Assembly: GCA_937883755.1 (NCBI GenBank)
Contig: CAKZYA010000024.1
Span: forward strand, 1-64,000
Length of the DNA stretch: 64,000 bases
DNA from: an uncultured Flammeovirgaceae bacterium
GTDB taxonomy: Bacteria; Bacteroidota; Bacteroidia; Cytophagales; Cyclobacteriaceae
Direction of reading: 5' to 3'
Below, one piece after another: positions 2,623 through 56,889 of this stretch. The translations under genes and the position numbers were made by a program. The first letter of the stretch is position 1; each line of letters opens with the position of its first letter. Below the pieces are notes generated by a model. It was given only the letters and a program-made list of their open reading frames with translations, was not told the origin of the DNA and ran no database searches.

Positions 2623-2722
2623 AGTCTAGAGACTGAAAACTGGAGATAGAATGTAGGTGATTCTTGCAATCCATCCCTTCCTACTTCTCGCTTCCCGCTT
2701 CGTGCTCCCTACTTCTTCCTTA
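2623..2722. repeat. Heptamer-phased intergenic element A
   Basis: Two blocks of 7-bp-periodic sequence. The left block (2623-2657) runs in units such as AGTCTAG and AGACTGA. The right block (2674-2722) runs in CTTC-type units such as CTACTTC, TCGCTTC and CCGCTTC, which on the minus strand read GAAG-type heptamers. The right block reaches the stop codon of the minus-strand aldo/keto reductase (2720-2722), so on that strand the repeat begins at the stop codon. The periodicity is seen directly; the function is unknown. Confidence 0.75.
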
Positions 2723-3691
2723 CTGCGACCATTCAGTAGGTTCTCGATCCCAGCGATGTTTCTTGAGCTCTTCTATCAAATCGGTAGATAAAGGAGTACT
2801 AGCACTACAACCAATATTAGAACGCACGTGTCGGGCTTTTCTCATTCCGGGAATAATAGTACTTACGGTAGGGTTCGCCAGAATAAACTTTAAAGCCGCT
2901 TCAGGCATACTGATGTTTTCGGGAAGTACAGCTTTTACGGCATCGGCATGATCGACACTGGAATGCAGGTTTTCGGGTACAAAGTAAGTTGAGCGCCAAT
3001 CATCTTCGGGGAAGGTAGTTTCGTGCGTAAATGTTCCGGTAAGGGTTCCCTCATCAAACGGCACCCGGGCAATTACTCCAATGTTTAGTTCATCGCAGAG
3101 CGGAAAGAGTTGGTCTTCGGGGGCTTGATCGAAAATATTGTAAATTACCTGTACAGCATCAATCAGACCGGTTCTGATCGTATTCAGGCCATTATTCGGT
3201 TCCCAGCGGTTCAAACTCAGGCCAATACCCTGAATTTTACCATCTTGTTTAAGTTGCTCTACCGCTCGTTTCCAATCGTCTTGCTCAGACCAGGCATCTT
3301 CCCACACATGAAATTGTAGTAGATCTACCGTTTCTGCATCCAGGTTCTTCAGGCTCTTCTCGGTATACTCAATGATATGATCGTAAGGAAATACCTCTTC
3401 TAGTTTGAAATGACTCTGAGAAGGCCAAGTAAAATTCTTAGGGGGTACTTTGGTAGCTGTGTACACCTTTTTATCAGAGTGGCGCTTAACCAATGCGCCC
3501 AGCAGTTCTTCGCTTTTTCCTTCTCCGTAACCCCAGGCTGTGTCAAAGAAGTTACAGCCTAGTTCTACAGCCAAATCTAGGGAATTTTCACTTTGGTCAT
3601 CGTCAGAGCCGGTCCACCCGGCCATGCCCCACATACCGTAGCCAATGTCGCTTACTTGCCAACCCAAACGGCCAAATTTTCGGTAGTTCAT
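2720..3691 (-). CDS. Aldo/keto reductase family oxidoreductase
   Basis: A 323-residue (alpha/beta)8-barrel NAD(P)H-dependent oxidoreductase. The N-terminus MNYRKFGRLGWQVSDIGYG and the segment FFDTAWGYGEGKSEELLG are typical of the AKR family. These carry the catalytic Asp (DTAWGYG) and Tyr (Y in GYGEG), and the Lys lies in TATKVPP. The C-terminal ANPTVSTIIPGMRKARHVRSN is the conserved cofactor-binding end. Length is normal. The substrate cannot be told. It converges on the response regulator and diverges from the serine hydrolase at 4014. Confidence 0.9.
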   Translation of the reverse strand: MNYRKFGRLGWQVSDIGYGMWGMAGWTGSDDDQSENSLDLAVELGCNFFDTAWGYGEGKSEELLGALVKRHSDKKVYTATKVPPKNFTWPSQSHFKLEEVFPYDHIIEYTEKSLKNLDAETVDLLQFHVWEDAWSEQDDWKRAVEQLKQDGKIQGIGLSLNRWEPNNGLNTIRTGLIDAVQVIYNIFDQAPEDQLFPLCDELNIGVIARVPFDEGTLTGTFTHETTFPEDDWRSTYFVPENLHSSVDHADAVKAVLPENISMPEAALKFILANPTVSTIIPGMRKARHVRSNIGCSASTPLSTDLIEELKKHRWDREPTEWSQ

Positions 3692-4013
3692 TTAATTGAT
3701 TGTTTGATTATTTATTACAGGTTTTGAATGTCTCAGGGTATTGGTTTTTACTTGCCATCAACCTTAAACTTTTTAAGTCGCTAATCTTTGAATTAGTTAT
3801 TTCTCTCAAAACTAATGAATTATTATTTGAACTATCTAAATAACTTTTTGTCTTTTTGAAATAAGTGGCTTGCTAACGTAAGAATATTTGTACTAATTAG
3901 TAGTTACGATCGTGTATTTTTTTACACTAATGAACTAAACAAGCGTTAAATCTGATAGTAAACTGAGGACAAAAAACTCGTAGCACAACCACCGTCAACT
4001 TTAGACCAAAACC
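3692..4013. promoter_or_regulatory. Divergent intergenic region with repeated ACTAAT sites
   Basis: AT-rich region between two divergent genes, presumably holding both promoters. ATTAGTT (3792-3798) faces AACTAAT (3810-3816). TACTAATTAGTA (3891-3902) is a perfect 12-bp palindrome. ACTAATGAATTA (3811-3822) recurs with one change as ACTAATGAACTA (3926-3937). The cluster could be an operator array, but AT-rich DNA makes chance matches likely. Confidence 0.4.
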
Positions 4014-5351
4014 ATGCAAGGAATATTGAGAAAACTTACATCCTTATCGCTGTACTTTCCTCGCCGTATTCACTTTTTATCCTTTACGGGTGTGATTACG
4101 CTAGTCCTTTTGGGAGTGCCATTTTCAATTTCTGAATCGGGGCCAGTAGTTTGGGGAGATAGCTACGAAGACTACTACGTTCGCCCGGTTGAGGTTGAAT
4201 TGCTGACGAATAAACATTCAGCCATTGCTGATTTTGAGCCCATAGATAAGGCAATGAATCGATTCATTCAGCGACAGGGCATTGTGGGAGCTTCTTTGGG
4301 TATTGTTAAGGATGGTAAACTAATGTATGCCAAAGGGTTTGGTTATGCTGATCAAGAAACCGAAGAAGCGGTGCAACCCTATCATCTGTTTCGGATAGGA
4401 AGCGTCTCTAAGTTGATTACGGCAGTAGCCATTATGAAACTGCGGGAAGATGGTCTTTTGCGGATGGATGAGCAAGTATTTGGTGAAGACGGAGTTTTAA
4501 ATACCGAAACCTATCAGGGAATTAAAGACAAAAAGCATTACAAGATTACAGTAGAACATCTACTTAACCATACCGGAGGCTGGAGCAAACGCTCGTTTGG
4601 CGACCCTCTATTTATTCCCCTGCGCATTGCTGATGCTATGGGCACTGAGGGTACTCCTGATTTGGATACCATTATCAAATTTATCTTATCTAAAAATCTA
4701 CCATATCGCCCCGGAACCCGCTACGACTATTCCAATTTTGGCTACTGCTTACTGGGGCGGGTGATTGAGGCTAAGTCAGGCAAACCCTACGAAGATTATG
4801 TGAGAACGGAGATTTTAGCTCCGCTCGGCATCACTAATATGCACTTGGCTAAGAATCTGCCAGAAGAACGGTTTGAAAACGAAGTGAGTTACTACGACCT
4901 TTCCGTGAACAATGTGCGCCCAGATATGTACGGTTCAGGCGAGTTGGTCTCTAATGCTTATAGTTTTAATATTGAAGCTCTAGGAGCCGCGGGAGGTTGG
5001 TTGGCCACCACGGCTGATCTGATGAAATTTTTGGTAGCAGTCGATGGCTTCAAAGACAGCCCTGATTTATTGAGTAATGAATCGCTACTTAGCATGATAG
5101 AAACTAAGTGGGGTAGACCCTACGGGTGGCGTAGTGCTCAAGTAGGCGGAACCTGGTGGCGCACGGGCACACTTGCTGGAACATCAGCGTTGATCAAGCG
5201 ACATCAAGACGGTACCTCATGGGTAGTATTAGCAAATTCTACTAATCATCGCAGCCGTTACTTTACAGGGCGCATTAGTTACATCATGCAAAAAGAATTT
5301 AGCCAACTTGATACCTGGCCCGAGCACGATTTATTTTCGGTGAGTTACTAA
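4014..5351 (+). CDS. Serine hydrolase of the beta-lactamase / penicillin-binding-protein-like family
   Basis: A 445-residue secreted or membrane-anchored hydrolase with class C beta-lactamase fold features. A hydrophobic segment lies at about residues 21-40. The nucleophile motif SVSK spans residues 130-133 in FRIGSVSKLITAV. The YxN motif is Y239-S240-N241 in YDYSNFGY. LLNHTGGW is the usual family signature, and RTGTLAG stands in for the KTG box. These proteins are usually esterases or D-amino-acid-peptide hydrolases, not antibiotic-resistance enzymes. The substrate is unknown. An intrinsic terminator follows. Confidence 0.88.
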   Translation: MQGILRKLTSLSLYFPRRIHFLSFTGVITLVLLGVPFSISESGPVVWGDSYEDYYVRPVEVELLTNKHSAIADFEPIDKAMNRFIQRQGIVGASLGIVKDGKLMYAKGFGYADQETEEAVQPYHLFRIGSVSKLITAVAIMKLREDGLLRMDEQVFGEDGVLNTETYQGIKDKKHYKITVEHLLNHTGGWSKRSFGDPLFIPLRIADAMGTEGTPDLDTIIKFILSKNLPYRPGTRYDYSNFGYCLLGRVIEAKSGKPYEDYVRTEILAPLGITNMHLAKNLPEERFENEVSYYDLSVNNVRPDMYGSGELVSNAYSFNIEALGAAGGWLATTADLMKFLVAVDGFKDSPDLLSNESLLSMIETKWGRPYGWRSAQVGGTWWRTGTLAGTSALIKRHQDGTSWVVLANSTNHRSRYFTGRISYIMQKEFSQLDTWPEHDLFSVSY

Positions 5352-5380
5352 CTCATTAGAAGCACTGTATCATATTATTT

Positions 5381-5410
5381 AGCCCGTGGGATTCGCTGCG
5401 GGCTTTTTTA
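5381..5410 (+). terminator. Intrinsic terminator after the serine hydrolase
   Basis: Stem AGCCCG (5381-5386) / CGGGCT (5399-5404) followed by a run of T, 30 bases after the stop codon. Confidence 0.85.
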
Positions 5411-5617
5411 TTTCTCTTCATCTTAAGAATTGAAAGACTAAATACAAGAATAGTACAAGTGGTTTTGTGATTTTCAAAAAGGGAATATTTTTATACCTGC
5501 TTATTAGCGGTCACCCAATATGCATGGATATATTTTAAGAAATTGATAAAATTACCGGATGGTGCAGGATGGCTTTTCCTGAAAAATGAGCTTTTATCCG
5601 GCAAATTCCACCACCGT

Positions 5618-6886
5618 ATGAACCTAAACAAACAACGTGTTGCCGAAGAGAATGCATTGGCTCTTCCTACTCATCAAGATCAATGGGATAGCTTTCGTTC
5701 GTTGCAATCATATTCGGATACTTTTTGGGATCGGTGTATACAACAGCTTTCGGCTATGCAGATTGCTATTCCGAGCTGGGCATTAGGCACTGGAGGAACT
5801 CGTTTTGGACGGTTTCCGGGTGGAGGTGAACCTCGTAACTTGGAAGAAAAGTTAGCAGACGTAGGAGTATTACACGCGCTGAACGGTCATTGTGGAGCTA
5901 TATCGCTCCATATTCCCTGGGATATTCCTGAGAATACCAATCATATTCGTCAGATAGCTGAAGAACTAGGGGTTACTTTTGATGCAGTGAATTCTAATAC
6001 TTTTCAGGATCAGGCTGACCAAACTCATTCGTATAAATTTGGCTCTTTGTCGCATACTGATACTGCGGTACGCGAGCAGGCCATAGCGCATAATCAGGAG
6101 GTTATCGATTACGGAAAAGCAATAGGCTCAAAGGCAATTACAGTTTGGCTATCCGACGGAGCTAATTTTCCGGGACAACAGCATTTTCGGCGAGCGTTTG
6201 AGAGGACGTTGGATAGTCTTCAGAAGATTTACGGTCATCTGCCTGATGATTGGCAGATGTTAGTAGAGTATAAACCGTATGAGCCTAACTTTTACAGCAC
6301 GGTTATTCAGGATTGGGGTAGTTCGTTACTTCTGGCTAGCAAATTAGGCTCAAAAGCCCTCAGTTTAGTAGATTTAGGTCATCATCTGCCAAATACCAAT
6401 ATCGAGCAAGTTGTCAGTCGGCTGATGATGGAAGGCAAGTTAGGTGGTTTCCACTTCAATGATTCCAAGTACGGAGATGATGATCTCACTGTAGGAAGCA
6501 TCAAGCCTTATCAGTTATTCTTGATCTTTCTGGAGCTGCTGGAAGGTATGGAAAATCAGTCGTTGGCGTGGATGATTGATGCCAGTCACAATGTGAAAGA
6601 TCCTTTAGAAGATCTGATGCAATCGGTTGAAGCCATCCTGATTGCTTACGCTCAGGCTCTATTAGTTGATCGGGAGGCACTGTATCAGGCTCAGGATGAT
6701 AATGATGTAGTGATGTGTCAGGAGATTATTCAACACGCGTTTCGTACAGATGTACGACCACTACTAGCCGAGGTACGTTACCGAGTCGGAGCGGCATTGC
6801 GACCCTTGGTACTGTACCGTAAGCTTCAGGTACGACAGACGTTAATTAATGACCGGGGCGCAGAAGCATTGGCTACTGGCCTTTGA
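5618..6886 (+). CDS. rhaI: L-rhamnose isomerase-like sugar isomerase (RhaI type, TIM barrel)
   Basis: Predicted metal-dependent aldose-ketose isomerase of the xylose-isomerase-like TIM-barrel superfamily, RhaI branch. Metal and substrate residues are expected in VEYKPYEPNFY (Glu), SLVDLGHHLPN (Asp, His) and GGFHFNDSKYGDDD (His, Asp). All three segments are present and match what I recall of L-rhamnose catabolism isomerases. The open frame extends upstream to a TTG at 5543, but I chose the ATG at 5618 (MNLNKQRV), which gives the family's usual length of about 420 residues. It is the first gene of an operon with an FGGY kinase and a permease. L-rhamnose is the likeliest substrate, but other 6-deoxy sugars are possible. 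Confidence 0.82.
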   Translation: MNLNKQRVAEENALALPTHQDQWDSFRSLQSYSDTFWDRCIQQLSAMQIAIPSWALGTGGTRFGRFPGGGEPRNLEEKLADVGVLHALNGHCGAISLHIPWDIPENTNHIRQIAEELGVTFDAVNSNTFQDQADQTHSYKFGSLSHTDTAVREQAIAHNQEVIDYGKAIGSKAITVWLSDGANFPGQQHFRRAFERTLDSLQKIYGHLPDDWQMLVEYKPYEPNFYSTVIQDWGSSLLLASKLGSKALSLVDLGHHLPNTNIEQVVSRLMMEGKLGGFHFNDSKYGDDDLTVGSIKPYQLFLIFLELLEGMENQSLAWMIDASHNVKDPLEDLMQSVEAILIAYAQALLVDREALYQAQDDNDVVMCQEIIQHAFRTDVRPLLAEVRYRVGAALRPLVLYRKLQVRQTLINDRGAEALATGL

Positions 6887-6916
6887 GTTTTGAAAATAGC
6901 AACCCAACAGAAGAAT

Positions 6917-8344
6917 ATGAACGAACCCGTTATTGCCATTTACGATATTGGAAGAACTAATAAGAAACTACTGCTTTATGATCGGGAATATCAAGTAGTA
7001 TACCAAGACCAGGTAAGTTTGCCAGAGATTAAGGACGAGGATGGATACCCCTGCGAAGATGTAAATAATGTTAGCCAGTGGGTAAAAAAGAGTTTTAAAG
7101 CCATAAAAAGAAACAAAAAGTTTGCTATACGGGCACTTAATGTATCTGCTTACGGAGCATCTTTTGTTCATTTAGATGAGCGAGGCCGCCCAGCTACTCC
7201 ACTGTATAATTACCTGAAGCCCTACCCAGAGGGACTAGCTGAGCAACTCTACGAACAATATGGTGGTGAGACTACATTTGTTCGGCAAACCGCTTCTCCT
7301 CGAATGGGGATGCTTAATTCTGGATTACAACTATACTGGCTCAAGCATTGTAAGCCTGAAATGTATAATACGATTTGGCGGTCATTGCACCTTCCTCAGT
7401 ATTTTGCTTATCTGATTCATGGGAAGTTTTTTAATGAGATTACCAGTCTAGGGTGCCACACTGCTCTGTGGGATTTTACGCGTGATCGGAGTCACGACTG
7501 GGTATATGCCGAAAAAATTGATGCCACACTACCTCCAGTAGTAGCTACACATTCCTACGAGGTGGTTTCTAATTACAATAGTGAAATGTTATGTGGAGTG
7601 GGTATTCACGATAGTTCAGCCTCACTCGTACCTTACCTTTTAGCGTTTGAAGAGTCATTCATGCTACTTTCTACTGGTACTTGGAGTATTACCTTAAACC
7701 CGTTTAATGAAGAGCCGCTTACTGAAGAAGAGCTAAAAAAAGATTGCTTACAATATATTAATTACCGGGGCACACCCGTGAAAGCATCCCGTATTTTTAT
7801 GGGGCACGAGCATGACTATCAGGAAGCCCGACTAGCCGAATACTTCAATAAAACTCCTGAGTATCACCGTTCTATCGTCTTGGATGAAGTATTATTGAGT
7901 AAATTACTTTCCAATGGTAGTCTTGATCAACGGTTTTATCCTCAGACAATGCAGCACACCGGCCCGCTTCCTAATTTTTCCGGCCCACTTACCGATTTAC
8001 AGCAATTTGCTAGTTACGAAGAAGCATATCACCAACTCATGCTTGATCTAGTAGGAATGCAGGTTATTTCTCTAAAGCTAGCAATAGGTCGAAAACCTCC
8101 TCAAAAAATCTTTATTTCGGGTGGGTTCTGCGCTAATCAGTTATTTATGCGTTTGCTAGCTACTCATTTTCCAGACATATGCTTTTACACTACTCAATTA
8201 GATAATGCATCGGCTCTAGGAGCTGCTTTAGTGATGCATCGTCACTGGAATCGCGACCAGCCTATTACGCACTTATTTCAATCTCAAGAAATTAAGCCCT
8301 TAGCTATTTCTAGTCTATCAACCTATCTACCTGTAAGCATATGA
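6917..8344 (+). CDS. FGGY-family carbohydrate kinase (rhamnulokinase-like)
   Basis: ATP-dependent sugar kinase with the two-domain FGGY actin-like fold, about 475 residues. The N-terminal phosphate loop is IAIYDIGRTNKK, the middle contains LLSTGTWSITLNPF, and the C-terminal ATP-binding segment is IFISGGFCANQLFM. The ATG at 6917 (MNEPVIAIYD) was preferred over a TTG at 6890 because it places the phosphate loop at the usual distance from the start. It lies 30 bases after the isomerase, so it presumably phosphorylates the ketose that enzyme makes. Its last base triplet overlaps the start of the permease gene (ATGA). Confidence 0.85.
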   Translation: MNEPVIAIYDIGRTNKKLLLYDREYQVVYQDQVSLPEIKDEDGYPCEDVNNVSQWVKKSFKAIKRNKKFAIRALNVSAYGASFVHLDERGRPATPLYNYLKPYPEGLAEQLYEQYGGETTFVRQTASPRMGMLNSGLQLYWLKHCKPEMYNTIWRSLHLPQYFAYLIHGKFFNEITSLGCHTALWDFTRDRSHDWVYAEKIDATLPPVVATHSYEVVSNYNSEMLCGVGIHDSSASLVPYLLAFEESFMLLSTGTWSITLNPFNEEPLTEEELKKDCLQYINYRGTPVKASRIFMGHEHDYQEARLAEYFNKTPEYHRSIVLDEVLLSKLLSNGSLDQRFYPQTMQHTGPLPNFSGPLTDLQQFASYEEAYHQLMLDLVGMQVISLKLAIGRKPPQKIFISGGFCANQLFMRLLATHFPDICFYTTQLDNASALGAALVMHRHWNRDQPITHLFQSQEIKPLAISSLSTYLPVSI

Positions 8345-20368: not shown

Positions 20369-20533
20369 GTGAAAAATAGATAGCTTATGTAGTGGCAAAA
20401 ATAGTGCGCACTTTCTAATTTTGGCAAAGTTTCTCATGAAAGATGTGTGCTGTCGAACGCTGAGTCAACAGGAAAGAGTATTTTTAGTAGTATCACGCAT
20501 GTTTTATCTTGCCAAGTCGTCAATAAAAGATTT

Positions 20534-21151
20534 ATGAATAAAATAGTAATCATCGTCATCAGTTTAGTTGCTGTTGGTGTACTGGCTTACTCACTACAAG
20601 GTGGAGAAAGCGAAGAAGATTACACCGAACGGATTTTAAAGGAGCGGGAAAACATCCGTAACTTTTTGCGAGGCTCAGGTGAGTCGCCTTTCGCACCCGA
20701 TAGTATTTCGTTTAAAGAATTAAACTACTATGAGCCGAATCTGGCTTATCGCGTGAATGCTCGTCTTGATCGTATTGACGACCATAAGTTACTGACCTTG
20801 CCTACTTCCGACGGAAAAGATGAAAAATACATTCGGTACGGCTACGCGACTTTTAATATCAATGGGCAATCCCAAAAGTTATTGGTACTGCAACCTTTTG
20901 AACAACAGCAGCCCCCCATGCTATTCGTTGCTTTTGCTGATGCTACTAGTGGGGAAGAAACCTACGGTGGAGGGCGCTACCTGAATGTAGAGATGCCGAG
21001 TCGTACCGGACAGAAAAGTTTGGAGCTAGATTTTAACTTGGCGTACAATCCGTACTGCGCTTATAATCCTACGTTTAGCTGTCCACTGCCTCCCCGGGAA
21101 AATGTATTAGAGGTTCCCATTCCGGTGGGTGAGAAAAATTTTGGTGATTAG
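20534..21151 (+). CDS. DUF1684 domain protein, N-terminally anchored
   Basis: 205 residues. An N-terminal hydrophobic segment (MNKIVIIVISLVAVGVLAYSL) anchors or exports the protein. The rest is a DUF1684 domain with its hallmark GGGRYLNVEMP and the C-terminal LDFNLAYNPYCAYNPTFSCPLPPREN. The family is of unknown function and is widespread in Bacteroidota. I chose the ATG at 20534 over a GTG at 20447 because the hydrophobic signal begins there and the upstream residues look non-coding. It is followed directly by a heptamer element and rnhB. Confidence 0.85.
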   Translation: MNKIVIIVISLVAVGVLAYSLQGGESEEDYTERILKERENIRNFLRGSGESPFAPDSISFKELNYYEPNLAYRVNARLDRIDDHKLLTLPTSDGKDEKYIRYGYATFNINGQSQKLLVLQPFEQQQPPMLFVAFADATSGEETYGGGRYLNVEMPSRTGQKSLELDFNLAYNPYCAYNPTFSCPLPPRENVLEVPIPVGEKNFGD

Positions 21152-21234
21152 TCCATAGCAGTCAGTTGACAGTCCACAGTGACTTGCTGTATGTAAAAGT
21201 AAAAAACCTGTCGACTGTGGATCGTTGACCGTCG
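21150..21234. repeat. Heptamer-phased intergenic element B
   Basis: 85 bp of 7-bp units. The left arm (21150-21184) has AGTC-type units (AGTCCAT, AGTTGAC, AGTCCAC). The right arm (21207-21234) has ACTGTGG, ATCGTTG and ACCGTCG. The arms pair through TCCACAGT (21173-21180) and ACTGTGGA (21214-21221). The first unit starts inside the stop codon of the DUF1684 gene. It shares AGTCCAT-type words with element D. Confidence 0.8.
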
Positions 21235-21250: not shown

Positions 21251-21829
21251 ATGTTAAAAAGTGCATTTACTACTGACCTGGTTGAAGCGGGTTGCGATGA
21301 AGTAGGCCGAGGGTGTTTGGCTGGTCCTGTAGTGGCAGCGGCGGTGATTCTACCCAAGGATTTTACCCACGTAATCCTCACTGATTCCAAGCAGCTTTCG
21401 GCAGAAAATCGAACCCAGCTAGCCAAGGAAATTAAAGCACAGGCACTAGCCTATGCGGTGGCTGAAGTGAGCAATGAACAAATCGATGAGATCAATATTT
21501 TGAATGCTTCTTTCCTAGCGATGCACCAAGCACTAGATGCCCTAAGTGTACGACCGGAGTTTATTTTGGTGGACGGAAACCGCTTTAATCCCTATCCGTT
21601 TGTGTCCCATGAATGCGTTGTAAAGGGTGATCAGCGATACTTTTCTATCGCAGCTGCCTCGGTTTTAGCCAAAACTTACCGAGATAGTTTGATGCAGCGG
21701 TTAGCCGAAGAGCATCCGCAGTATGGTTGGGAAAGTAATGTGGGCTACCCTACGTCAGCCCACCGTCAGGCTATTCGGCAACACGGTATCACGCCCTGGC
21801 ACCGGAAAAGTTTTGCGGGGTGTAAATAG
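21251..21829 (+). CDS. rnhB: Ribonuclease HII
   Basis: 192 residues. It cleaves the RNA strand of RNA-DNA hybrids and removes misincorporated ribonucleotides. Acidic catalytic residues D16 and E17 sit in the signature AGCDEVGRGCLAGPVVAA. D108 is in ILVDGNRF, and the last conserved region is AAASVLAKTYRDSLM. LTDSKQLS is the family's second motif. Length is normal. It is flanked on both sides by heptamer elements and lies upstream of uppS on the same strand. Confidence 0.96.
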   Translation: MLKSAFTTDLVEAGCDEVGRGCLAGPVVAAAVILPKDFTHVILTDSKQLSAENRTQLAKEIKAQALAYAVAEVSNEQIDEINILNASFLAMHQALDALSVRPEFILVDGNRFNPYPFVSHECVVKGDQRYFSIAAASVLAKTYRDSLMQRLAEEHPQYGWESNVGYPTSAHRQAIRQHGITPWHRKSFAGCK

Positions 21830-21917
21830 TGCTTTAGTATTAATAGCTTCATGGTGTTATAGTACTAAAGTATTGAAAGTTACTGGACTCCGAACTCAAA
21901 ACTTTAATACACTAACC
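21827..21917. repeat. Probable heptamer-phased intergenic element F
   Basis: Starts at the stop codon of rnhB. CTTTAGTA (21832-21839) faces TACTAAAG (21863-21870), and a second weaker pairing joins TATTGAAAGTT (21871-21881) to the later AACTTTAATA. Units such as CCGAACT and CAAAACT keep a 7-bp step in the right half. The period is less regular than in the other elements, so membership is tentative. Confidence 0.5.
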
Positions 21918-22003
21918 CTGTAATACCTGAATATCATCGCACGCTAGGTCTGCTATATTCGACTAAATTTTTGTACCTTGCGAGCAATCTCGGATGAGTG
22001 AGC

Positions 22004-48706: not shown

Positions 48707-51028
48707 ATGATCATTCGTATGACTGAAGTAATATTTCTAATCAATAGGCTAGCACTTCGGCACTTACTGTTTTCGGTAGTGCTCAGCATTCTTTCTGTTG
48801 CGACCACTTACGCCGACACAATAGATTACGACCTATCTACCTACCGCCCGCAACCAGGATTGACGGCAGAAGTAGCGAATAAAGTATTAACTGTCACTTG
48901 GCAGGGCGATCGCAATACTGAACTACGGTTGCGATTTACCGTCAATCAGGGAGTGCCTACTATCCAGGAACTGGCAGTTCAATCCGCAGAAGATGGGTGG
49001 AGAGTGTTAGCTACGGATGTGGTACCGGAGTTCCGCGTGGTGTCAGGAGTACGGCGGGTTACTCAGCAGCAAACCGAACCGCTGGAGCGGCTAGGAGTAC
49101 CGTTAACAGTAAAGAAGCTTAAAGAGGTTATGTGGGATGCTTTTTGGGATGCTCCGCTCTACGTGTCAGATGAGCCCCCGCTCTCACATCAGTCATCTAT
49201 TCCGGCAGCGGAACCCTTTGCTAATCATCCCGGTATGCCTCGCAAGCCGGAGGAAATCATTCGGGATACGGCTCGCTACCAAGCTACTAACTGTAAAGTA
49301 CGTACCAACGGAGCCCGCATTGAAATTACCTTTCCGGGAGCTGAAGTCGGTATCTTCTCTGGATACTTACAATACGACGTATTCAAAGGCAGTAACCTGA
49401 TTCGGCAGATGCTAGTCGCGAAGACCGACCATCCTTCGGTGGCGTTTAAGTACGATGCTGGACTTAAGGGTTTGCCAACCCAATCTCCGTCAAAAGTAGT
49501 ATGGCGCGATCTTGTACATCGTTGGCAGGAGTATCAGTTAGGTGGCTCAGTCAACGAACAAGCTACTGTGGTACGCAGCAGTAATCGGCTAATGGCGGCC
49601 GAATTGGCTGATGGAGCTATAGCGGCTTTTCCGCCGCCCCACAGCTTTTACTGGGCGCGGGAAACCGAACAGAATTTAGGCTACGGCTGGTACCGCAAAG
49701 ACAGTATTAACTCTTTTTCCTTCGGTATCCGCCAAGCTGAAGGGGAAGAAGACCCGGAGTTTTACCACAACTTTGCGCTGTATAATGCCCGCCCAGGTAC
49801 CTGGCAACGGATGCCGCTGTTTCTGTATGTCAGTCCTGAAAATGGATGGAACGCGATTAATCAGGCATTGAAATTTACCAACGGTGACCAATTTCGTCCG
49901 CTACCGGGTTACAAGGTGATGGGACACCACTACCACGTGGGGTTGGTTCCTCGGCTTCAGGAAAAGGGCGGGTTTGACCAGCGATTGAACGATATCACTA
50001 CCATGAAGGGCATTGGGGTAGACATTTACGGAGTGATTGACGGGGAGCGCGGGCCGGGTCGGCACGATAAGGGTGAAAAATATCTGGCAGGACTGGCAAA
50101 CTACTACGAAGCTGCTCGTCGCCAATCAGACAAAAACTTTCTGGTAATGCCCAGCGATGAAAACAGTACTGGCGGGCGTCGCCCCTTTCTAGGCGGGCAC
50201 TACGATATTATTCCCTCTAAGCCTATCTACTGGCGACCCCAGCGTCTGGAAGGCCAGCCATTATCCGAGCCTCATCCTAAGTACGGCACGGTGTACAATC
50301 TGGGCGAGCCGATGGATATGATGGAGATGGCCGAGCGGGAAAACGTACTTATCTCCATGCCCCACCCTAGGGCGAAGCGTTCTACCGGGTTTCTAGAAGC
50401 CATTAAAGACGAGCCTCAGTTTCTGCATCCGCACTACTTTAGTTTGGGCTACCGCTGGGGTATGGGGATTGATGCTTCAGAAACCCGGCTGGGTGAATAC
50501 CGCTTTCAAACCCTTTGGGACGAAGCTAATAACTGGATGGCTGCCCGTGACTTACCTCCCAAATTCGCACTAGCCATTTCTGAATCCCGCTCGGATTTAG
50601 GCCACTGGGGCAAACCACCCTACGATGATAGCTACGGTATGTCACCCGTCAATTACCTAAAACTTGATTCCGTACCGTCGGTGGAAGATATGAGCTTGAT
50701 CATTAATACGCTAAAGCAGGGTGACTACTTTGTAACTTCGGGTGAGGTGCTAATCCCCCATTACGAAGTGCAAGGCGAAGGAAGTCAGCGAGCCATCGTG
50801 GCAGATGTAGAGTGGACATTTCCGCTAGAAATGGTAGAATTGGTGTGGGGCGACGGCGAAACTACCGATCGCCAAGTTATTTCCACTACGGATTTATTAC
50901 CTTTCGGCAAAAAGCGGTTTGAAATCCCCTTTGATGCTCAGGGCAAAAAATGGGTACGCTTCGCTGCCTGGGACGTAGCCACCAATGGGGCAATGGTACA
51001 GCCTATTCAGTTAATGAATAATGACTGA
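48707..51028 (+). CDS. Secreted protein with PHP/metallohydrolase-like C-terminal half, function unknown
   Basis: 773 residues. The N-terminal hydrophobic signal ends at about TTYADT (residue 37). The first half is beta-rich and unassigned. The second half has features of PHP-type metal hydrolases: an HxH-like start GHHYHVGL, MPSDEN, GGHYDI, ISMPHPRAKRSTGF and ISESRSDLGHW. The C-terminus (LVWGDGETTDRQ...FAAWDVATNGAM) is a beta-domain seen in CehA-like proteins. I do not recognise a named family. It heads a run of co-oriented genes with an acyltransferase and an amidohydrolase. Confidence 0.7.
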   Translation: MIIRMTEVIFLINRLALRHLLFSVVLSILSVATTYADTIDYDLSTYRPQPGLTAEVANKVLTVTWQGDRNTELRLRFTVNQGVPTIQELAVQSAEDGWRVLATDVVPEFRVVSGVRRVTQQQTEPLERLGVPLTVKKLKEVMWDAFWDAPLYVSDEPPLSHQSSIPAAEPFANHPGMPRKPEEIIRDTARYQATNCKVRTNGARIEITFPGAEVGIFSGYLQYDVFKGSNLIRQMLVAKTDHPSVAFKYDAGLKGLPTQSPSKVVWRDLVHRWQEYQLGGSVNEQATVVRSSNRLMAAELADGAIAAFPPPHSFYWARETEQNLGYGWYRKDSINSFSFGIRQAEGEEDPEFYHNFALYNARPGTWQRMPLFLYVSPENGWNAINQALKFTNGDQFRPLPGYKVMGHHYHVGLVPRLQEKGGFDQRLNDITTMKGIGVDIYGVIDGERGPGRHDKGEKYLAGLANYYEAARRQSDKNFLVMPSDENSTGGRRPFLGGHYDIIPSKPIYWRPQRLEGQPLSEPHPKYGTVYNLGEPMDMMEMAERENVLISMPHPRAKRSTGFLEAIKDEPQFLHPHYFSLGYRWGMGIDASETRLGEYRFQTLWDEANNWMAARDLPPKFALAISESRSDLGHWGKPPYDDSYGMSPVNYLKLDSVPSVEDMSLIINTLKQGDYFVTSGEVLIPHYEVQGEGSQRAIVADVEWTFPLEMVELVWGDGETTDRQVISTTDLLPFGKKRFEIPFDAQGKKWVRFAAWDVATNGAMVQPIQLMNND

Positions 51029-51105
51029 TGACGAATGGTTGACCCGCAATGTAGATGAATGTTTATCAATTATCATTCACTAGTCACTGTCCATCAATCA
51101 TTAAA
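51021..51105. repeat. Heptamer-phased intergenic element C
   Basis: 85 bp in two arms of six 7-bp units. The left arm has ATGA-type units (ATGACTG, ATGACGA). The right arm (51064-51105) has CAT/CAC-type units (TATCATT, CATCAAT). AATGACTGATG (51020-51030) faces CATCAATCATT (51092-51102) with one mismatch. The stop codon of the preceding gene (51026-51028) lies inside the first two units. Confidence 0.75.
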
Positions 51106-51142
51106 TTGCTGTATATTTCACTTTCGTTAGCACGAATCATCT

Positions 51143-52291
51143 ATGGCTGAAACTACTACTACCGTTCCTTCACCAACGTATCTTAAAGAATCAAAACCAA
51201 CCAGACAGCGACTACTCTCGCTGGATGTACTGCGGGGGATTACGATCATCGGAATGATTGTCGTGAACACTCCGGGTTCTTGGAGTTACGTATATCCGCC
51301 GCTTCAGCACGCCGAGTGGCACGGGCTTACCCCTACTGATCTGGTATTTCCCTTTTTCTTGTTTATGGTTGGTATTTCTATTACGCTGGCTTTGGGGCGA
51401 CGGGTAGAAAGTGGGACACCGTTGAAGGGAGTAGTGACCAAGATCGTGAAGCGTTTCTTTATCATCTACGCTCTCGGTTTGTTTTTGGCACTGTTCCCGG
51501 CTTTTGACTTTGAGAATTTACGTTACGTAGGAGTGCTGCCCCGTATCGCCGTTGTTTATCTGGTGTGTAGCTTGTTATTTCTAAAACTATCCTGGCGAAG
51601 GGTTGCTTGGCTAAGTGGGATTACACTGGTTGCTTACTGGTTGGCAATGGTACTAATTCCGGTACCGGGAGTAGGATTGGCTAATTTGGAACCTGGAACC
51701 AACTTGGCGGCTTGGCTAGACGAACTATTGGTACCCGGCCGTATGTACCGTGTCACCTGGGATCCGGAAGGTTTTTTGAGTACTTTCCCAGCCATTGTTA
51801 CGGGCTTTACGGGAGTGCTTACCGGCTACTGGTTGCGTTCGTCGCAAACCGTTGAGCGAAAGATTATCGGGATGATGGTAGCGGGGGTACTAGCCTGTCT
51901 GGTGGGTTATTTGTGGCATCAGTTCTTTCCGGTCAATAAAAATTTGTGGAGTAGTTCTTATGTGTTGGTTTCTTCGGGCATGGCTTTACTATTGCTAGGT
52001 ACGCTATACTGGTTTATTGATGTTAAGCACTATCGGAGCTGGACACCCTTTTTTGTCGCCTTCGGTATGAATGCCATTACCGCTTACGTGCTGCACGGAA
52101 CGCTGATCGATGCGTTTCATATTCCGGTTAATGAGGCGGGGGAAACCCTAAGAGGGAGTAGTTTCCAGGGACTAGTACAGCTAGGCTTACTACCAGAACT
52201 GGCCTCATTTGTTTGGGCACTGCTTTATTTACTATTGTGCTTCATCCCGGTCTGGATTATGTATCGCCGAAATATCATTGTCAAAATTTAA
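51143..52291 (+). CDS. HGSNAT/NagX-like membrane acyltransferase (DUF5009 type)
   Basis: 382 residues with about ten membrane helices. SLDVLRGITIIGMIVVN and HAEWHGLTPTDLVFPFFLFMVG (H56, H60) match heparan-alpha-glucosaminide N-acetyltransferase-like proteins, where a histidine in this region carries the acetyl group across the membrane. AYVLHGTLIDAF is near the C-terminus. It would acetylate an amino sugar at the outer face of the inner membrane. The substrate here is not evident. It is co-oriented with the PHP-like gene and the secreted amidohydrolase. Confidence 0.82.
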   Translation: MAETTTTVPSPTYLKESKPTRQRLLSLDVLRGITIIGMIVVNTPGSWSYVYPPLQHAEWHGLTPTDLVFPFFLFMVGISITLALGRRVESGTPLKGVVTKIVKRFFIIYALGLFLALFPAFDFENLRYVGVLPRIAVVYLVCSLLFLKLSWRRVAWLSGITLVAYWLAMVLIPVPGVGLANLEPGTNLAAWLDELLVPGRMYRVTWDPEGFLSTFPAIVTGFTGVLTGYWLRSSQTVERKIIGMMVAGVLACLVGYLWHQFFPVNKNLWSSSYVLVSSGMALLLLGTLYWFIDVKHYRSWTPFFVAFGMNAITAYVLHGTLIDAFHIPVNEAGETLRGSSFQGLVQLGLLPELASFVWALLYLLLCFIPVWIMYRRNIIVKI

Positions 52292-52362
52292 TCACTTACT
52301 AATCTCGATGCGAAATACCTGAGCGTTACCGCTCGTTAGCATCTCGAATACCTTCCTGAACT

Positions 52363-53520
52363 ATGAAGCATCTGTTAGTACTATTTCTGTGTTTATTAAC
52401 AACCCTAGCAATGGGGCAAACGGAGAAGCCGGACACTACTATGGGCTTTGAGGAGTACGAACCAACTTCTACGCTGGTAGTACCGGAAAACCCAGTGAAA
52501 CGAGCGAAGTATCCCTTTGTGGATGTGCACGGTCATCAGTACAATATGCCTGAGCAAGACTTGTCCAAGGTTATTACTTCCATGGACACGCTCAATATGG
52601 CCGTGATGGTGAATCTGAGCGGTAGAGGCTTTAAGCGTACTCCTGCCGGGTTTGATGTAAATACTTCCGAGCATTTAGTAAAATCTTTAGCGAGGGTTAA
52701 AGCCGAGTATCCCGGGCGGTTTGTGTTATTTACAAATATCTCATTTAGGGGTATTGGTAAAGAAGGCTGGACGGAGCGGGCAGTAAAGCAGTTAGAAGAG
52801 GATATACAAGGTGGAGCGAATGGACTAAAAATCTACAAAAGCCTAGGCATGAGCGTGAAGGATATGGACGGCAACCGGGTGCCTGTCGACGACGAACGAC
52901 TTGATCCAATCTGGGCAAAATGTGGGGAGTTAGGCGTGCCAGTCTTGATTCATTCGGCTGACCCTCGGCCCTTCTGGGCGGAAATGGATAGCACCAATGA
53001 ACGCTGGTTAGAACTAAAAACCCGCCCCAACCGTAAGCGTAGTGCCACCGATCCGGCTCCCTGGGAGCAGATCATCCAAGAGCAGCATAATGTGTTTAAG
53101 AAACATCCTAATACTAAGTTTATCAACGCTCATATGGGCTGGTATGCTAATAACCTAGATAAATTAGGTATGCTTTTAGAAGCGTATCCTAACATGTACG
53201 TGGGCATCGGAGCTATCATTGCCGAATTGGGTCGTCAGCCGCGGCAGACGCATCGCTTCTTTGTGAAGTATCAGGATCGGGTATTGTTTGGAAAGGATAG
53301 TTGGAAGCCAGAGGAGTTTCCTACCTATTTTCGGGTGCTAGAAACTGACGATGAGTACTTCCCTTATCATAAAAAATACCATGCTTTCTGGCGGATGTAC
53401 GGCATAAACTTACCCGATGAAGTGCTACGCAAGGTATATTACGAGAATGCTCTTCAACTTATTCCGGGCATTGATAAGTCATTATTTCCTGCCTCTCAAA
53501 AAGCCAGTCTTCAGGAGTAA
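52363..53520 (+). CDS. Secreted amidohydrolase (amidohydrolase-2 family)
   Basis: 385 residues. The signal peptide is about 1-19 (ending LAMGQ). Metal-binding H56-x-H58 lies in FVDVHGHQYN. Other expected ligands lie in PVLIHSADPRPFW, FINAHMGW and VLFGKDSW. The fold is the TIM-barrel amidohydrolase type that includes ACMSD-like decarboxylases and lactonases, so it could be a hydrolase or a decarboxylase. Secretion is unusual for central metabolism and points to extracellular or periplasmic substrate processing, in line with its neighbours. Confidence 0.85.
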   Translation: MKHLLVLFLCLLTTLAMGQTEKPDTTMGFEEYEPTSTLVVPENPVKRAKYPFVDVHGHQYNMPEQDLSKVITSMDTLNMAVMVNLSGRGFKRTPAGFDVNTSEHLVKSLARVKAEYPGRFVLFTNISFRGIGKEGWTERAVKQLEEDIQGGANGLKIYKSLGMSVKDMDGNRVPVDDERLDPIWAKCGELGVPVLIHSADPRPFWAEMDSTNERWLELKTRPNRKRSATDPAPWEQIIQEQHNVFKKHPNTKFINAHMGWYANNLDKLGMLLEAYPNMYVGIGAIIAELGRQPRQTHRFFVKYQDRVLFGKDSWKPEEFPTYFRVLETDDEYFPYHKKYHAFWRMYGINLPDEVLRKVYYENALQLIPGIDKSLFPASQKASLQE

Positions 53521-53627
53521 TTAATTGCAGAAATTGGGATGCCTTGGAGATTATATGTAATCCATTATTCTTAACTTTAAAAGTGAATTTTTTCAGAAGT
53601 AATTTTACGTCTACTTCTAAGAGATAA

Positions 53628-53656
53628 CCAACAATACGCGTTAGGATTATTGTTGG
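53628..53656 (+). promoter_or_regulatory. Leader hairpin before the TonB-dependent receptor
   Basis: CCAACAAT (53628-53635) faces ATTGTTGG (53649-53656), ending 20 bases before the receptor start. A weaker AGAAGT/ACTTCT dyad stands just upstream. No T tract follows, so a leader or operator role is more likely than termination. Confidence 0.45.
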
Positions 53657-53676
53657 ATTAATAAGTATAAGCCTAC

Positions 53677-56055
53677 ATGACACTGCTGCGACGAGCCATT
53701 TTTTCTACGTTATTCTCTCTGTTATTTTCCACTCTCAGTGCTCAAACCATCACCCAAACAGTGCGGGGGACGGTTGTTGAGCAAGCAACCCTCCAGCCAC
53801 TAGTAGGAGCAACAGTATATCTAAAAGGAGCAGATTTAGGAAGTAGTACCAATGAACAGGGAAGCTTCGTAATTCAGGAAGTGCCTATTGGGCGCTACGT
53901 ACTAGAAGTTAGTTTCGTCGGGTATGAAACTGTCCAGATTTCAGGCTTGCTAATAAAGTCAGGAAAAGAAACTATACTGAAAATCACACTCTCTCCCACC
54001 GCTCAAAACTTGGATGAAGTAGTAGTGCAGGAAGAACGAGTGTCCCCACCCAAGATGATCACCCCCTTAAGTAGTCGAAGCTTCACCGTAGAAGAAACCC
54101 GTCGGTTTGCGGCTACCTTTTTCGATCCCGGTCGGTTAGCTACGTCCTTTCCGGGAGTGGTAGGGGTGAATGACCAGGCGAATCATATTTCGGTACGCGG
54201 TAATTCTCCTAATAGTATGCTGTGGCGGGTAGAAGGAATCGATATTGTGAACCCTAATCACCTATCCAATGCCGGAACCTTCAGCGATCGTCGGGCAGCC
54301 AGCGGCGGTAGCCAAAGCGTGCTGAGCACTCAGGTGTTAGATAACTCTCAGTTTTTGACCGGAGCATTTCCGGCCAATTATGGCAATACCATTGGCGGTG
54401 CATTTGACATGCAGCTACGCACTGGGAATAATCAACAACGTGAGTACACCGTACAGGCCGGATTAATTGGGCTAGAGTTTGCGGCGGAAGGGCCGTTTAC
54501 CGAAGGTGGGGAAAGCTCTTATTTGGCAAACTATCGCTACTCCACCGTTGGACTGCTGACTAACGTAATTGGTTTAGATTTTGGCGGTGAGGCGATTTCT
54601 TTTCAGGATTTGTCGTTTAACCTCACGTTTCCTACCCAAAATGCGGGCACATTTACATTTTTCGGAATAGGCGGAACCGGGCGGAATGTGTTTGAGGCTC
54701 CGCGTGACTCGCTGGAATGGGAAGCGCAGGAAGATCGTTTTGATGTTACTTTCACTAATGACATGGGCGCGGCGGGAGTCACCCACACCCTACCACTCAA
54801 TGAACGTACCTTGGTTAAATCAGTGGTGGCTATGTCGGCTTTGAGTAGCACCCGACAGGGCAATTTGGTTACTGATACCTACGAAACGCTATCTCTGGAG
54901 GAAGACACTTACGAGGAATATCGTTTTTCCGTTACCTCCTCAATTACTCACCGAACTTCAGCCCGACAAGTACTGAGTGGTGGGTTCTTTCTAAACCACC
55001 TGAACTACCAACTATCGAGCAGCGAAGGAACTGCTGTTGCTAATCCGCAAGTACTAGTTTCTGGTGGGGGAAGTGGTTGGTTGCTTCAACCCTATGTGCA
55101 GGGCGAATGGCAAATAGGTAGTCAATTAACGGGGCAAATTGGTTTGCACTATACCTACTTCTCACTTAGTGAGTCCCACGCAGTGGAGCCTCGGGCGCAG
55201 CTTCGGTGGGTTCCCGGTGATCGCCATTCACTCACATTAGCTTACGGATTGCATAGTCAGATTCAACAGCCGGGAGTATATTTCTCAACCGTGCCTAACG
55301 ATATTTTGGGTCAGCCTCCACTCCAACCTAATCAGAACCTTGATCTAACCAAAGCTTTTCACTATACGCTGGGTTACCAGAGTTTACTGGGTGAGACCGT
55401 TCGGCTGCGAGCAGAAGCGTATTATCAAGATTTATTTGACGTACCCATTGCTATCAGTCCAACCAGTTCGTTCTCGGCTCTCAACCTGTTTGAGGGATTT
55501 GTCAACGAAAGACTAATTAATGAGGGTACGGGTGAAAACTACGGATTAGAAGTATCGCTGGAGAAAAGCTTGGTAGATAGTTATTACTTTTTGCTAAGTA
55601 GCTCGTTTTATGAATCAAAGTTTACCGGAGCTGATGGGGTGAAGCGGGATACTCGCTTTAACGGTAATTACGCGTTCAGCTTAACGGGTGGTAAAGAAAT
55701 TCCCTGGAACAGAAATGATAAGCAACGAGTAATTGGGATTAACCTGCGGGCGAATTATCTGGGAGGACTGCGAACCACACCGATTGATGAGATAGCTTCT
55801 CGAGAGCAACAAACAACTGTATTTATTGACGACCAGGCTTTCTCCAATAAGCTACCTGACTATTTTAAACTGGATCTACGCATCAGTCTGCGAAAAAATA
55901 CGGATCGTTATACTAGTGTATGGTCGCTTGACTTGCAAAATGCGCTTAATCAGCAAAATGTAGCCTTTCAGTACTTTGATACGATAGAGGGAGCGGTTGT
56001 CACTAAGTACCAACTCGGTCTGATTCCGATTTTAACGTATCGGGTAGAGTTCTGA
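53677..56055 (+). CDS. TonB-dependent receptor with carboxypeptidase-like regulatory domain
   Basis: 792 residues. The signal peptide ends at about TLSAQ (23). A carboxypeptidase-like domain covers 28-105 (VRGTVVEQATLQPLVGATVYLKG), the TonB-box-like NLDEVVVQEE comes next, then a plug domain (VNDQANHISVRGNSPNSMLWRVEGIDI) and a barrel to the C-terminal YRVEF. At under 800 residues it is shorter than SusC proteins and has no SusD partner, so it is a single-component importer of unknown ligand. It follows the secreted amidohydrolase and PHP-like genes. Confidence 0.88.
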   Translation: MTLLRRAIFSTLFSLLFSTLSAQTITQTVRGTVVEQATLQPLVGATVYLKGADLGSSTNEQGSFVIQEVPIGRYVLEVSFVGYETVQISGLLIKSGKETILKITLSPTAQNLDEVVVQEERVSPPKMITPLSSRSFTVEETRRFAATFFDPGRLATSFPGVVGVNDQANHISVRGNSPNSMLWRVEGIDIVNPNHLSNAGTFSDRRAASGGSQSVLSTQVLDNSQFLTGAFPANYGNTIGGAFDMQLRTGNNQQREYTVQAGLIGLEFAAEGPFTEGGESSYLANYRYSTVGLLTNVIGLDFGGEAISFQDLSFNLTFPTQNAGTFTFFGIGGTGRNVFEAPRDSLEWEAQEDRFDVTFTNDMGAAGVTHTLPLNERTLVKSVVAMSALSSTRQGNLVTDTYETLSLEEDTYEEYRFSVTSSITHRTSARQVLSGGFFLNHLNYQLSSSEGTAVANPQVLVSGGGSGWLLQPYVQGEWQIGSQLTGQIGLHYTYFSLSESHAVEPRAQLRWVPGDRHSLTLAYGLHSQIQQPGVYFSTVPNDILGQPPLQPNQNLDLTKAFHYTLGYQSLLGETVRLRAEAYYQDLFDVPIAISPTSSFSALNLFEGFVNERLINEGTGENYGLEVSLEKSLVDSYYFLLSSSFYESKFTGADGVKRDTRFNGNYAFSLTGGKEIPWNRNDKQRVIGINLRANYLGGLRTTPIDEIASREQQTTVFIDDQAFSNKLPDYFKLDLRISLRKNTDRYTSVWSLDLQNALNQQNVAFQYFDTIEGAVVTKYQLGLIPILTYRVEF

Positions 56056-56058
56056 TTT

Positions 56059-56143
56059 AGTCCATAGTCTACGGTCGACAGTCAATAGTCCACTGTTAAT
56101 AGCCTATTTATCTCTTCTGTAGACTGTCGACTATTAGCTATCT
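56059..56143. repeat. Heptamer-phased intergenic element D
   Basis: 85 bp starting four bases after the receptor stop. The left arm has seven AGTC-type units (AGTCCAT, AGTCTAC, AGTCAAT, AGTCCAC). The right arm (56116-56143) has ACTGTCG, ACTATTA and similar. GTCGACAGTC (56074-56083) faces GACTGTCGAC (56122-56131), 10 bp perfect. It shares its words with element B, 35 kb away. Confidence 0.85.
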
Positions 56144-56182
56144 TTTCCTTTATTTGTAATAATCTTTTTAACCTAACCTATT

Positions 56183-56800
56183 ATGAAAAAGCTTTCTCTT
56201 TCATTAGTATTTATTCTTTCCACAATCATTGCCTTTGCTCAAGATGATGATTCTGGTCAGGAGACTTTGGTTAAGGGGTTTAGTATTACTCACTCGGGGG
56301 GCTATGGTGGTCCGGCGTTAAAGGTCAGCTCAATCGGGGGCGATATGGTATTGTTTTCCGGTGGTTACGGTGGGTGGTTTCTGAATAAAAAATGGATGTT
56401 TGGCGGTGGTGGCTACGGAATGATTACCCAACTGGATGTACCCGCTACAGCCTCAGTACGACCGGGTCAGGACTTACACTACGATATGGGTTACGGTGGT
56501 TTTCTAACCGAATATATTTTGCATTCAGACCGAATGTTGCACCTTACGGCTCATATGCTGATTGGAGCCGGAGGTATCTCACAGGATTTAGAAGGCGAAC
56601 CCGATTTACAAGGTACAGAAAGTAGTTTCTTCGTACTAGAACCCGGTGTAGGGGCAGAGTTGAATATCACGGAGTTCTTCCGGTTAAATGGGGGATTTAC
56701 CTATCGTATCGTTAGTGGTTCAGATACCCGAGGCATTACTGACAGCGATCTAAGCAGTATGGCTTTCTTCCTTAATTTTAAATTTGGTTTTTTTAACTAA
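56183..56800 (+). CDS. Small outer-membrane-type beta-barrel protein, function unknown
   Basis: 205 residues with a signal peptide (about 1-19, ending IAFAQ) and a Gly/Tyr/Phe-rich body with alternating hydrophobic strands (GGYGGWFLNKKWMFGGGGYGMI; YDMGYGGFLTEYIL). It ends in the aromatic FKFGFFN, as outer-membrane barrels do. The length would suit an eight-stranded barrel. I do not recognise a family. It stands between two heptamer elements and may belong with the receptor upstream. Confidence 0.75.
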   Translation: MKKLSLSLVFILSTIIAFAQDDDSGQETLVKGFSITHSGGYGGPALKVSSIGGDMVLFSGGYGGWFLNKKWMFGGGGYGMITQLDVPATASVRPGQDLHYDMGYGGFLTEYILHSDRMLHLTAHMLIGAGGISQDLEGEPDLQGTESSFFVLEPGVGAELNITEFFRLNGGFTYRIVSGSDTRGITDSDLSSMAFFLNFKFGFFN

Positions 56801-56804
56801 TAGA

Positions 56805-56889
56805 AGGTCGAGGGTATAGGGTAGAAGATTAAAGGAGCACTCGCTTAACCCATTTTTTACCCTATACCTTATACCATTTACCCTATATG
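56805..56889. repeat. Heptamer-phased intergenic element E, reaching the nuoK start codon
   Basis: 85 bp beginning right after the stop of the preceding gene. Left units are GGGTATA and GGGTAGA; right units (from 56855) are CTATACC, TTATACC, ATTTACC and CTATATG, the last containing the nuoK ATG. GGTATAGGGTA (56813-56823) faces TACCCTATACC (56858-56868), 11 bp perfect. A second copy, TACCCTATA (56879-56887), can pair with the same left arm. Confidence 0.8.

Follow-up and report, generated by a model that had tools for sequence, protein, structure and literature searches.

Hairpin-like elements of degenerate 7-bp and 8-bp words at gene ends of a Bacteroidota genome share a layout and differ in wording at orthologous junctions

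We find that gene ends of an uncultured Flammeovirgaceae bacterium carry a family of short intergenic elements that have a common layout without a common sequence. The window analyzed here, the first 64,000 nucleotides of contig CAKZYA010000024.1 (assembly GCA_937883755.1), holds six of them (Table 1). In each, degenerate words of 7 or 8 bp form an array that is rich in G and poor in C, and a second array, roughly its reverse complement, usually comes next. The elements show intergenic periodicity, dyad symmetry as a group, a bias toward the DNA just after stop codons, word differences between species, length changes in 7- and 8-bp steps, stems with no preference for G-U-type mismatches, and a 5′ arm poor in C. 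We read them as Bacteroidota counterparts, in kind and not necessarily by descent, of the heptad hairpins of cyanobacteria known as short tandemly repeated repetitive (STRR) sequences, with rewriting at the DNA level and some spread as copies. In our judgment, this full reading stands at an even balance. The kind of element, an STRR-like heptad hairpin, is well supported; the mechanism of its rewriting is one that we infer.

The host genome (G000, 7.60 Mb) was sampled over 464 kb (~6%), comprising the window (contig C24 in our numbering) and 400 kb more. The nearest named hit of its RNase HII, at 81% identity, suggests a Flammeovirgaceae/Cyclobacteriaceae-like member of the Bacteroidota. Open reading frames (ORFs) were called by a simple length rule, and gaps of at least 50 bp were scored at periods 4 to 14. 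At period 7, 17 of the 186 gaps reached z ≥ 5, against a mean of 0.1 in ten sets of dinucleotide shuffles. The signal is specific to this period: none of the same gaps passed at period 4, 10, 11, or 13, one each at periods 5, 6, 8, and 12, and two at period 9, while the harmonic period 14 was passed by five. The preliminary description of the window had named intergenic 7-bp periodicity no higher than in shuffled controls as grounds for refutation; the counts do not refute it, and the observation is real and wider than first noted. Chance or low-complexity sequence is rejected by these counts, and we regard it as extremely improbable. The small excess in bulk intergenic DNA of the host (identities of 0.2766, 0.2785, and 0.2723 at lags 6, 7, and 8) would suit it, but this excess is slight because the elements are sparse, and bulk autocorrelation is too blunt a measure for them.

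The same description had assigned 7-bp steps to five elements and probably a sixth, and a length of 85 bp to four. Five have a lag-7 identity of 0.45 to 0.54, with lags other than multiples of 7 mostly at 0.1 to 0.4. The sixth, at 21827-21917, is not heptameric, because lag 8 exceeds lag 7 (0.43 versus 0.32; z 4.7 versus 2.3), and more clearly so in its orthologues. These occur in three genomes of the same genus (G001, G002, and G003) and have GTGTTATG-like octamers, with runs of the form GTGTTAGA GTGTTATG... A single period for all elements was therefore rejected, given this octad class. A fixed size was rejected as well: the 16 tandem element-bearing host gaps measure 73 to 841 bp, and the G003 orthologue of the element at 51021 is ~54 bp long.

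Orthologous junctions hold the same layout in different words. The three relatives share ~67 to 87% DNA identity with the host in alignments longer than 1 kb, and 32 host gaps could be placed against them. Junction 56801 is spelled in GGTA-type words in the host, G001, and G002 and in GGGCAGG-type words in G003. Two further cases lie on host contig C33: junction 66900 has GGTAGAA-type words in the host and G001 and G/C-rich words, clearest in the right half, in G003, and junction 84734 has AGTC words in the host and G003 and TGACAAG-type words in G002. At junction 51021, the host element is of the AATGANT type, G001 has GCAATGA/TGCACAT words, and G003 has a shorter AATGANT element. At junction 21152, G003 retains AGTC words, and in G001 the remnants of AGTC arms flank a nested AATGANT hairpin. 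The pattern recurs in another order, between two genomes of one genus (G269 and G434): at one junction a TTTCGAA hairpin of period 7 stands against a AATGGATT-type hairpin of period 8, a second has AGTC words versus GAAAGC-type words, and a third has an element in G434 alone. Thus, the common architecture without common sequence that had been proposed from the window is borne out at orthologous junctions in two orders.

Element-bearing gaps are also less conserved than other gaps (median identity 0.58 versus 0.74, P = 0.003; pairs with a length ratio outside 0.4 to 2.5 omitted). Arm switching was scored by comparing an element's own-arm match with matches to the arms of other species. By this score, both arms have clearly switched together in G001 at junctions 21152 (own 36.5 versus 14 to 17) and 51021 (own 37.5 versus 13 to 23.5). 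As a side observation, the latter junction in G002 (L138, ~430-1500) holds ~1 kb of inserted coding-like DNA in place of a heptad element.

Arrays of binding sites for a DNA- or RNA-binding protein with a 7-bp repeat would explain why conserved and variable columns occur within a word class (AGTC-N-A/G-C/T), a pattern found in several families, and are likewise favored by the C-poor 5′ arm. However, the words differ between species at the same junction and several classes occur within one genome; therefore, one protein would not maintain all of them. We consider such arrays quite improbable.

Length changes follow the word unit. A ~300-bp composite of several word blocks is dispersed in G003, with 48 matches (40 of 246 first-look candidates were scored), and has short matches alone (up to 67 bp) in G000, G001, and G002. 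Between fixed anchors, its heptad block measures 14, 14, 21, 28, 28, 28, 42, and once 4 bp. Its octad block measures 16 bp in three copies, 24 bp in five, 32 bp in three, and 47 bp in one, after removal of three unrelated rows and one run-through row from 16; both sets of lengths come from copies in the retrieved stretches. Copy number therefore varies in near-exact units of 7 and 8 within one element, in keeping with the earlier suggestion of a process that keeps the 7-bp phase. Examples of the composite lie at L167:4955-5231, L167:13490-13800, and L153:9430-9787. Its left half has G-type words (GGAGACC, AATGAAT, and CAATGAG), and its right half has C-type words (AACACTT octads and GTGGACT) that are not complementary to those of the left half.

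This dispersal raises the alternative that the elements are small non-autonomous mobile elements, akin to repetitive extragenic palindromic (REP) sequences or miniature inverted-repeat transposable elements, that insert at gene ends; a class switch would then be an insertion, or a replacement by another family. We regard this as a real, if minority, possibility. It is favored by the composite itself, several copies of which begin directly after a stop codon, by the few word classes to which the elements in the host period-7 gaps mostly belong, and by the nested element in G001. A loop, GTGACTTGC, common to three host AGTC elements (window:21178, C33:84760, and C33:85114) and to the G003 orthologue of the first, points the same way. 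Yet beyond this loop and the composite, the elements have words and layout in common but no alignable core, and inspection of the orthologous gaps and the composite ends by eye revealed neither target duplications nor a clean empty site.

REP elements and their mobilizer, the REP-associated tyrosine transposase (RAYT), are the obvious comparison. They are short palindromic intergenic elements near gene ends, mobilized by a Y1 transposase (PF01797). The present elements are likewise short, palindromic, intergenic, and near gene ends, but REP elements have no heptad phase. Furthermore, the Y1 transposase, the one transposase family searched, has no match in G003, the member of the genus richest in AGTC triples, as against 7, 5, and 5 matches in G000, G001, and G002. 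RAYT mobilization was therefore rejected as a general cause. Y1 transposase remnants do occur in the host, several of them split or with stops (e.g., G000:C13:68880-69250, C60:299922-300323, and C58:3467-3869).

The elements accumulate directly after genes. The preliminary description placed nearly all of them at stop codons, and this was confirmed at the start of those at 21150, 51021, 56059, and 56805 (the last two begin 3 to 4 bases 3′ of the stop) and at the far end of 2623-2722. An excess directly after stop codons, which it had also proposed, is seen in two genomes: lag-7 identity is maximal in the first 20 bp after stops both in G000 (0.306 versus 0.289 at lag 6) and in the G003 stretches (0.326 versus 0.262 at lag 6). 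A gap count by orientation found elements in 18 of 193 host gaps, all 18 among the 157 tandem or convergent gaps and none among the 36 divergent gaps (P = 0.027). In unselected stretches of G003, elements occupy one of the 17 divergent gaps and 9 of the 61 others.

Period-7 gaps as a group show excess dyad symmetry. Dyad symmetry and stem mismatches were tested with gaps longer than 400 bp excluded. Dyad z exceeds 3 in 7 of 14 period-7 gaps of G000, compared with 5% of 146 other gaps, and in 35% of 43 period-7 gaps of G003, compared with 10% of 205 others; most of these G003 stretches were selected by AGTC matches or synteny. The earlier claim of two partly pairing arms is supported for the group and, by folding, for two of the six window elements.

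Stem mismatches were counted by an aligner that gives every mismatch type equal weight, in tandem gaps only (convergent and divergent gaps excluded) and without elements whose arm score was below 22 (9 of 56 in this genus and 12 of 47 in other Bacteroidota; 8 of 51 in a first count). The stems of this genus have 114 G-U-type and 117 A-C-type mismatches (47 of 56 elements; 107 and 115 in the first count), and those of other Bacteroidota have 90 and 97 (35 of 47 elements). Terminator stems from the same sequences, scored by the same method, have 29 and 11 (39 sites; pooled contrast between elements and terminators, Fisher P = 0.005). Non-periodic gaps are likewise symmetric (245/256 and 644/614), as is expected of unselected DNA. 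The absence of a G-U excess therefore gives no sign that a sense-RNA hairpin is what is maintained. An RNA-selected stem was rejected on these counts, and selection on an RNA hairpin is unlikely.

These results do not support the roles that the preliminary description had offered, namely, termination, 3′-end processing, or transcript stabilization by stem-loops. The location after stop codons would fit them, as would two proposals from cyanobacteria: that STRR sequences act in transcript stability or translational coupling (PMC2670836), and that a stem-loop at nifH1 of Anabaena variabilis, not described there as a heptad, extends mRNA life, a statement made there from unpublished data (PMC4284476). 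In contrast, the stems lack the G-U excess that terminators have. A search for terminator-like sites with loops of 3 to 8 found 29 in 33 kb holding the six elements and none overlapping them. Within that loop range, the elements thus lack the hairpin followed directly by a T run that marks intrinsic terminators, and their stems do not favor G-U over A-C. The window elements without a clear fold also argue against an RNA role, as do the G003 elements in 9 of 40 divergent gaps, from stretches that were mostly chosen by AGTC matches. RNA-level elements are, in our view, clearly unlikely.

The 5′ arm is poor in C, which is a new property of such elements. G outnumbers C there in 36 of 44 untied elements of this genus (8 opposite, P = 2.5e-5; three ties removed) and in 27 of 35 elements of other Bacteroidota (8 opposite, P = 0.002). 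Non-periodic gaps have no such bias (48 versus 39 and 120 versus 127). An inverted repeat presents an identical 5′ arm whichever strand is read, so the bias belongs to the element and is not an effect of gene direction. RNA:DNA hybrids have been tied to quasi-palindrome mutation in yeast (PMC3820800). By analogy, nascent RNA that is rich in G directly past the stop codon, the point at which ribosomes leave, may favor such hybrids at the elements.

How might such sequences be rewritten at the DNA level? Replication slippage would add or delete words as complete units. Template switching can create and mend hairpins (PMC8794818); on a transient hairpin, it would copy one arm onto the other, so that both arms are respelled together. 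New hairpins could arise in, or land inside, old ones, and some families would additionally spread as copies. Elements might accumulate just after stop codons because the DNA there is tolerant, and perhaps because a ribosome-free transcript favors RNA:DNA hybrids. The nested G001 element between AGTC remnants, the joint arm switches, and the 7- and 8-bp steps support rewriting of this kind. Such an account requires no cellular function, although a function is compatible with it. A proposal of Mrazek et al. (2007), relayed in PMC4679880, is that 7 nt may be the length of a polymerase contact that favors slippage.

Several observations weigh against the reading of STRR-like hairpins rewritten at the DNA level. 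The nearest relatives are different species, slippage and template-switch events were not watched, and the dispersed families suggest that whole elements are copied too. Joint arm switches are just modest at junctions 56801 (G003 own 22 versus 10.5 to 20) and C33:84734 (G002 own 22 versus 13 to 20), and none is seen at C33:66900 in G003 (18 against a between-locus baseline of 17.8). Over all sites, the mean arm score is 30.2 within and 26.6 across species, an advantage that is small because species with the same word class cross-match. Single-strand DNA folding clearly beats shuffles in two of the six window elements (56059 and 56805); the advantage is weak or absent at 21830, 51021, and 21150, and there is none at 2623 (z +0.7, with no stable hairpin predicted). 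Symmetric mismatches are also expected of very young arms, and the counted elements are partly orthologues of one another and hence not independent. The C-poor 5′ arm is not foreseen by slippage or template switching as such. In the mostly AGTC-chosen G003 stretches, divergent gaps hold elements (9 of 40) as other gaps do (32 of 156). Persistence is borderline by automatic count: 7 of 12 host elements are matched by an element in a relative, compared with 4 of 20 element-free gaps (P = 0.053 at threshold 4.0, 0.035 at 4.5, and 0.068 at 3.5), a count that excludes the two G001 orthologues at 56055 and 51021, which direct alignment had revealed. Finally, in 17 unselected stretches, each from a different Bacteroidota genome, 3 of 140 gaps exceed z 5.5 at period 7 (one 213-bp piece omitted), which makes the trait patchy; in 22 stretches that were picked by AGTC matches or adjoin them, 29 of 235 gaps do.

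A bolder version would have a widespread and active DNA-writing process, with a step of 7 to 8 nt, make chiral hairpins, their 5′ arm poor in C, where DNA past the stop codon is first free of ribosomes, perhaps set off there by RNA:DNA hybrids. We think this rather unlikely. In this version, the two arms would be rewritten jointly by the process, and a junction would keep its hairpin while the spelling changes repeatedly. If true, the same process would also underlie cyanobacterial STRR sequences and the class switches of the Nostoc P6b stem.

Several known systems resemble the present elements in part. STRR sequences of Nostoc and Anabaena are usually 7-bp repeats that form hairpins, with function unknown, and stand, for example, between hupS and hupL and near hoxW (PMC2670836). 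The Bacteroidota elements share degenerate tandem 7-bp units (five of six in the window), an intergenic position at many sites, and, for the group and two of the six window elements, a predicted capacity to form hairpins. The likeness to cyanobacterial heptanucleotide repeats, raised in the preliminary description, is upheld by these published traits and by the same anatomy in a cyanobacterial plasmid gap (below). The elements differ in belonging to another phylum and in words and sites, the likeness being one of layout; an 8-bp class, word switches at orthologous junctions, and a C-poor 5′ arm are documented here. The P6b stem of the Nostoc trnL group I intron is built from one of two degenerate heptad classes (TDNGATT or NNTGAGT), changes by unit-length indels, and has repeatedly been replaced wholesale by the other class (PMC4476775). 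It shares with our elements two heptad arms, unit-length indels, and class replacement. However, it is a single intron locus with a structural RNA role, whereas here there are many junctions, many classes, and no RNA signature.

A third system consists of TAACTGA direct repeats, known from Beggiatoaceae, cyanobacteria, and five Bacteroidetes, with 7-nt indel steps in Cyanothece (PMC4679880). These too are intergenic heptamer arrays that include Bacteroidetes, but they have one fixed word, are direct repeats (with one indirect set), and lie mostly 5′ of start codons in the main species. The earlier statement that heptanucleotide repeats had no description in this group must therefore be narrowed: TAACTGA heptamers were described, and no report of two-arm, word-switching elements in Bacteroidetes was found in the open-licence PMC literature.

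The comparison has wider interest. In two Bacteroidota genera, each from its own order, a given gene junction holds a constant layout in different words, with length changes in unit steps and no RNA signature. Cyanobacterial heptad repeats have no settled function or mechanism, and the question of whether slippage and template switching write hairpins into gene junctions becomes testable. There is also a caution, in that co-varying arms alone do not prove a selected RNA structure.

The two-arm layout is seen in several families. In 644 gaps beside RNase HII genes (80 loci), z exceeds 5.5 in 12 at period 7, 8 at period 8, and 5 at period 9, with 0 to 3 passing at periods 5, 6, 10, 11, and 12; of the 12, one is from a record of the same genus (L056) and a few resemble coding periodicity in missed ORFs. 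An AGTCNAY triple occurs in 15 of 395 genomes of the phylum, the host included, in a scan that used one word class and so sees little. Its reversed control is not a null, because the control pattern YANCTGA covers TAACTGA, itself a heptad class. This control pattern is abundant in some genomes, for example, G180 with 56 + 33 matches. A common GA-N-T core of the words was dropped, as several classes lack it.

A cyanobacterial plasmid shows the same signal. Over 350 kb of plasmid A of Trichormus variabilis, period 7 is passed by 10 of 195 gaps and every other period between 5 and 12 by 1 to 3, and one gap (L325:43048) has the same two-arm anatomy directly after a stop codon. Dyad z exceeds 3 in one of five period-7 or -8 gaps there. 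The mismatch count (3 versus 10) comes from two usable elements, too few for comparison, and the count of arm chirality likewise has two.

Table 1. Repeat elements of the window and their arms. Lag values are identities; z7 and z8 are gap scores at periods 7 and 8; fold z is for single-strand DNA against shuffles.
Feature	Position	Strand	Periodicity	Fold z	Other basis
Degenerate heptad element, CTTC-type words on right	2623..2722	.	lag-7 0.48, lag-14 0.51, gap z7 4.7		
AGTCNAY heptad element	21150..21234	.	lag-7 0.46, gap z7 5.3	-0.3	
Octad (8-bp) element 3′ of RNase HII-like gene	21827..21940	.	lag-8 0.43, z8 4.7	-1.5	
AATGANT-type heptad element	51021..51105	.	lag-7 0.45, gap z7 4.0	-1.0	
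Left (5′) arm of clearest AGTCNAY element, 56059-56143	56059..56093	.	lag-7 0.54, gap z7 8.3	-3.1	
Right arm of 56059-56143, GTNGACT words	56119..56141	.			sequence and fold
Left arm of element 56805-56889, GGTANAA-type words	56805..56825	.	lag-7 0.50, gap z7 7.0	-2.2	
Right arm of element 56805-56889, TACCCTA-type words	56858..56887	.			sequence

Neither of two known identities fits the window elements. A known Rfam family was rejected, as the sole match in the window at gathering score is a tRNA at 1-69 on the minus strand, cut by the window edge, with none at the elements. TAACTGA repeats were rejected because a pair of the unit (TAACTGATAACTGA, at most one mismatch) was not found in the window.

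The elements differ in their neighbors. The far end of 2623-2722 lies at the stop codon of a minus-strand gene (2720-3691), and the corresponding G003 gap has a z7 of just 2.6. The element at 21150-21234 begins inside the stop codon of 20447-21151 and extends to the RNase HII-like gene at 21251, and that at 51021-51105 begins within the last codons of 48707-51028. G003 and G002 both carry an orthologue of element 56059-56143 that is built of AGTC words. In element 56805-56889, the right arm ends at the start codon of the next gene, 56887-57192.

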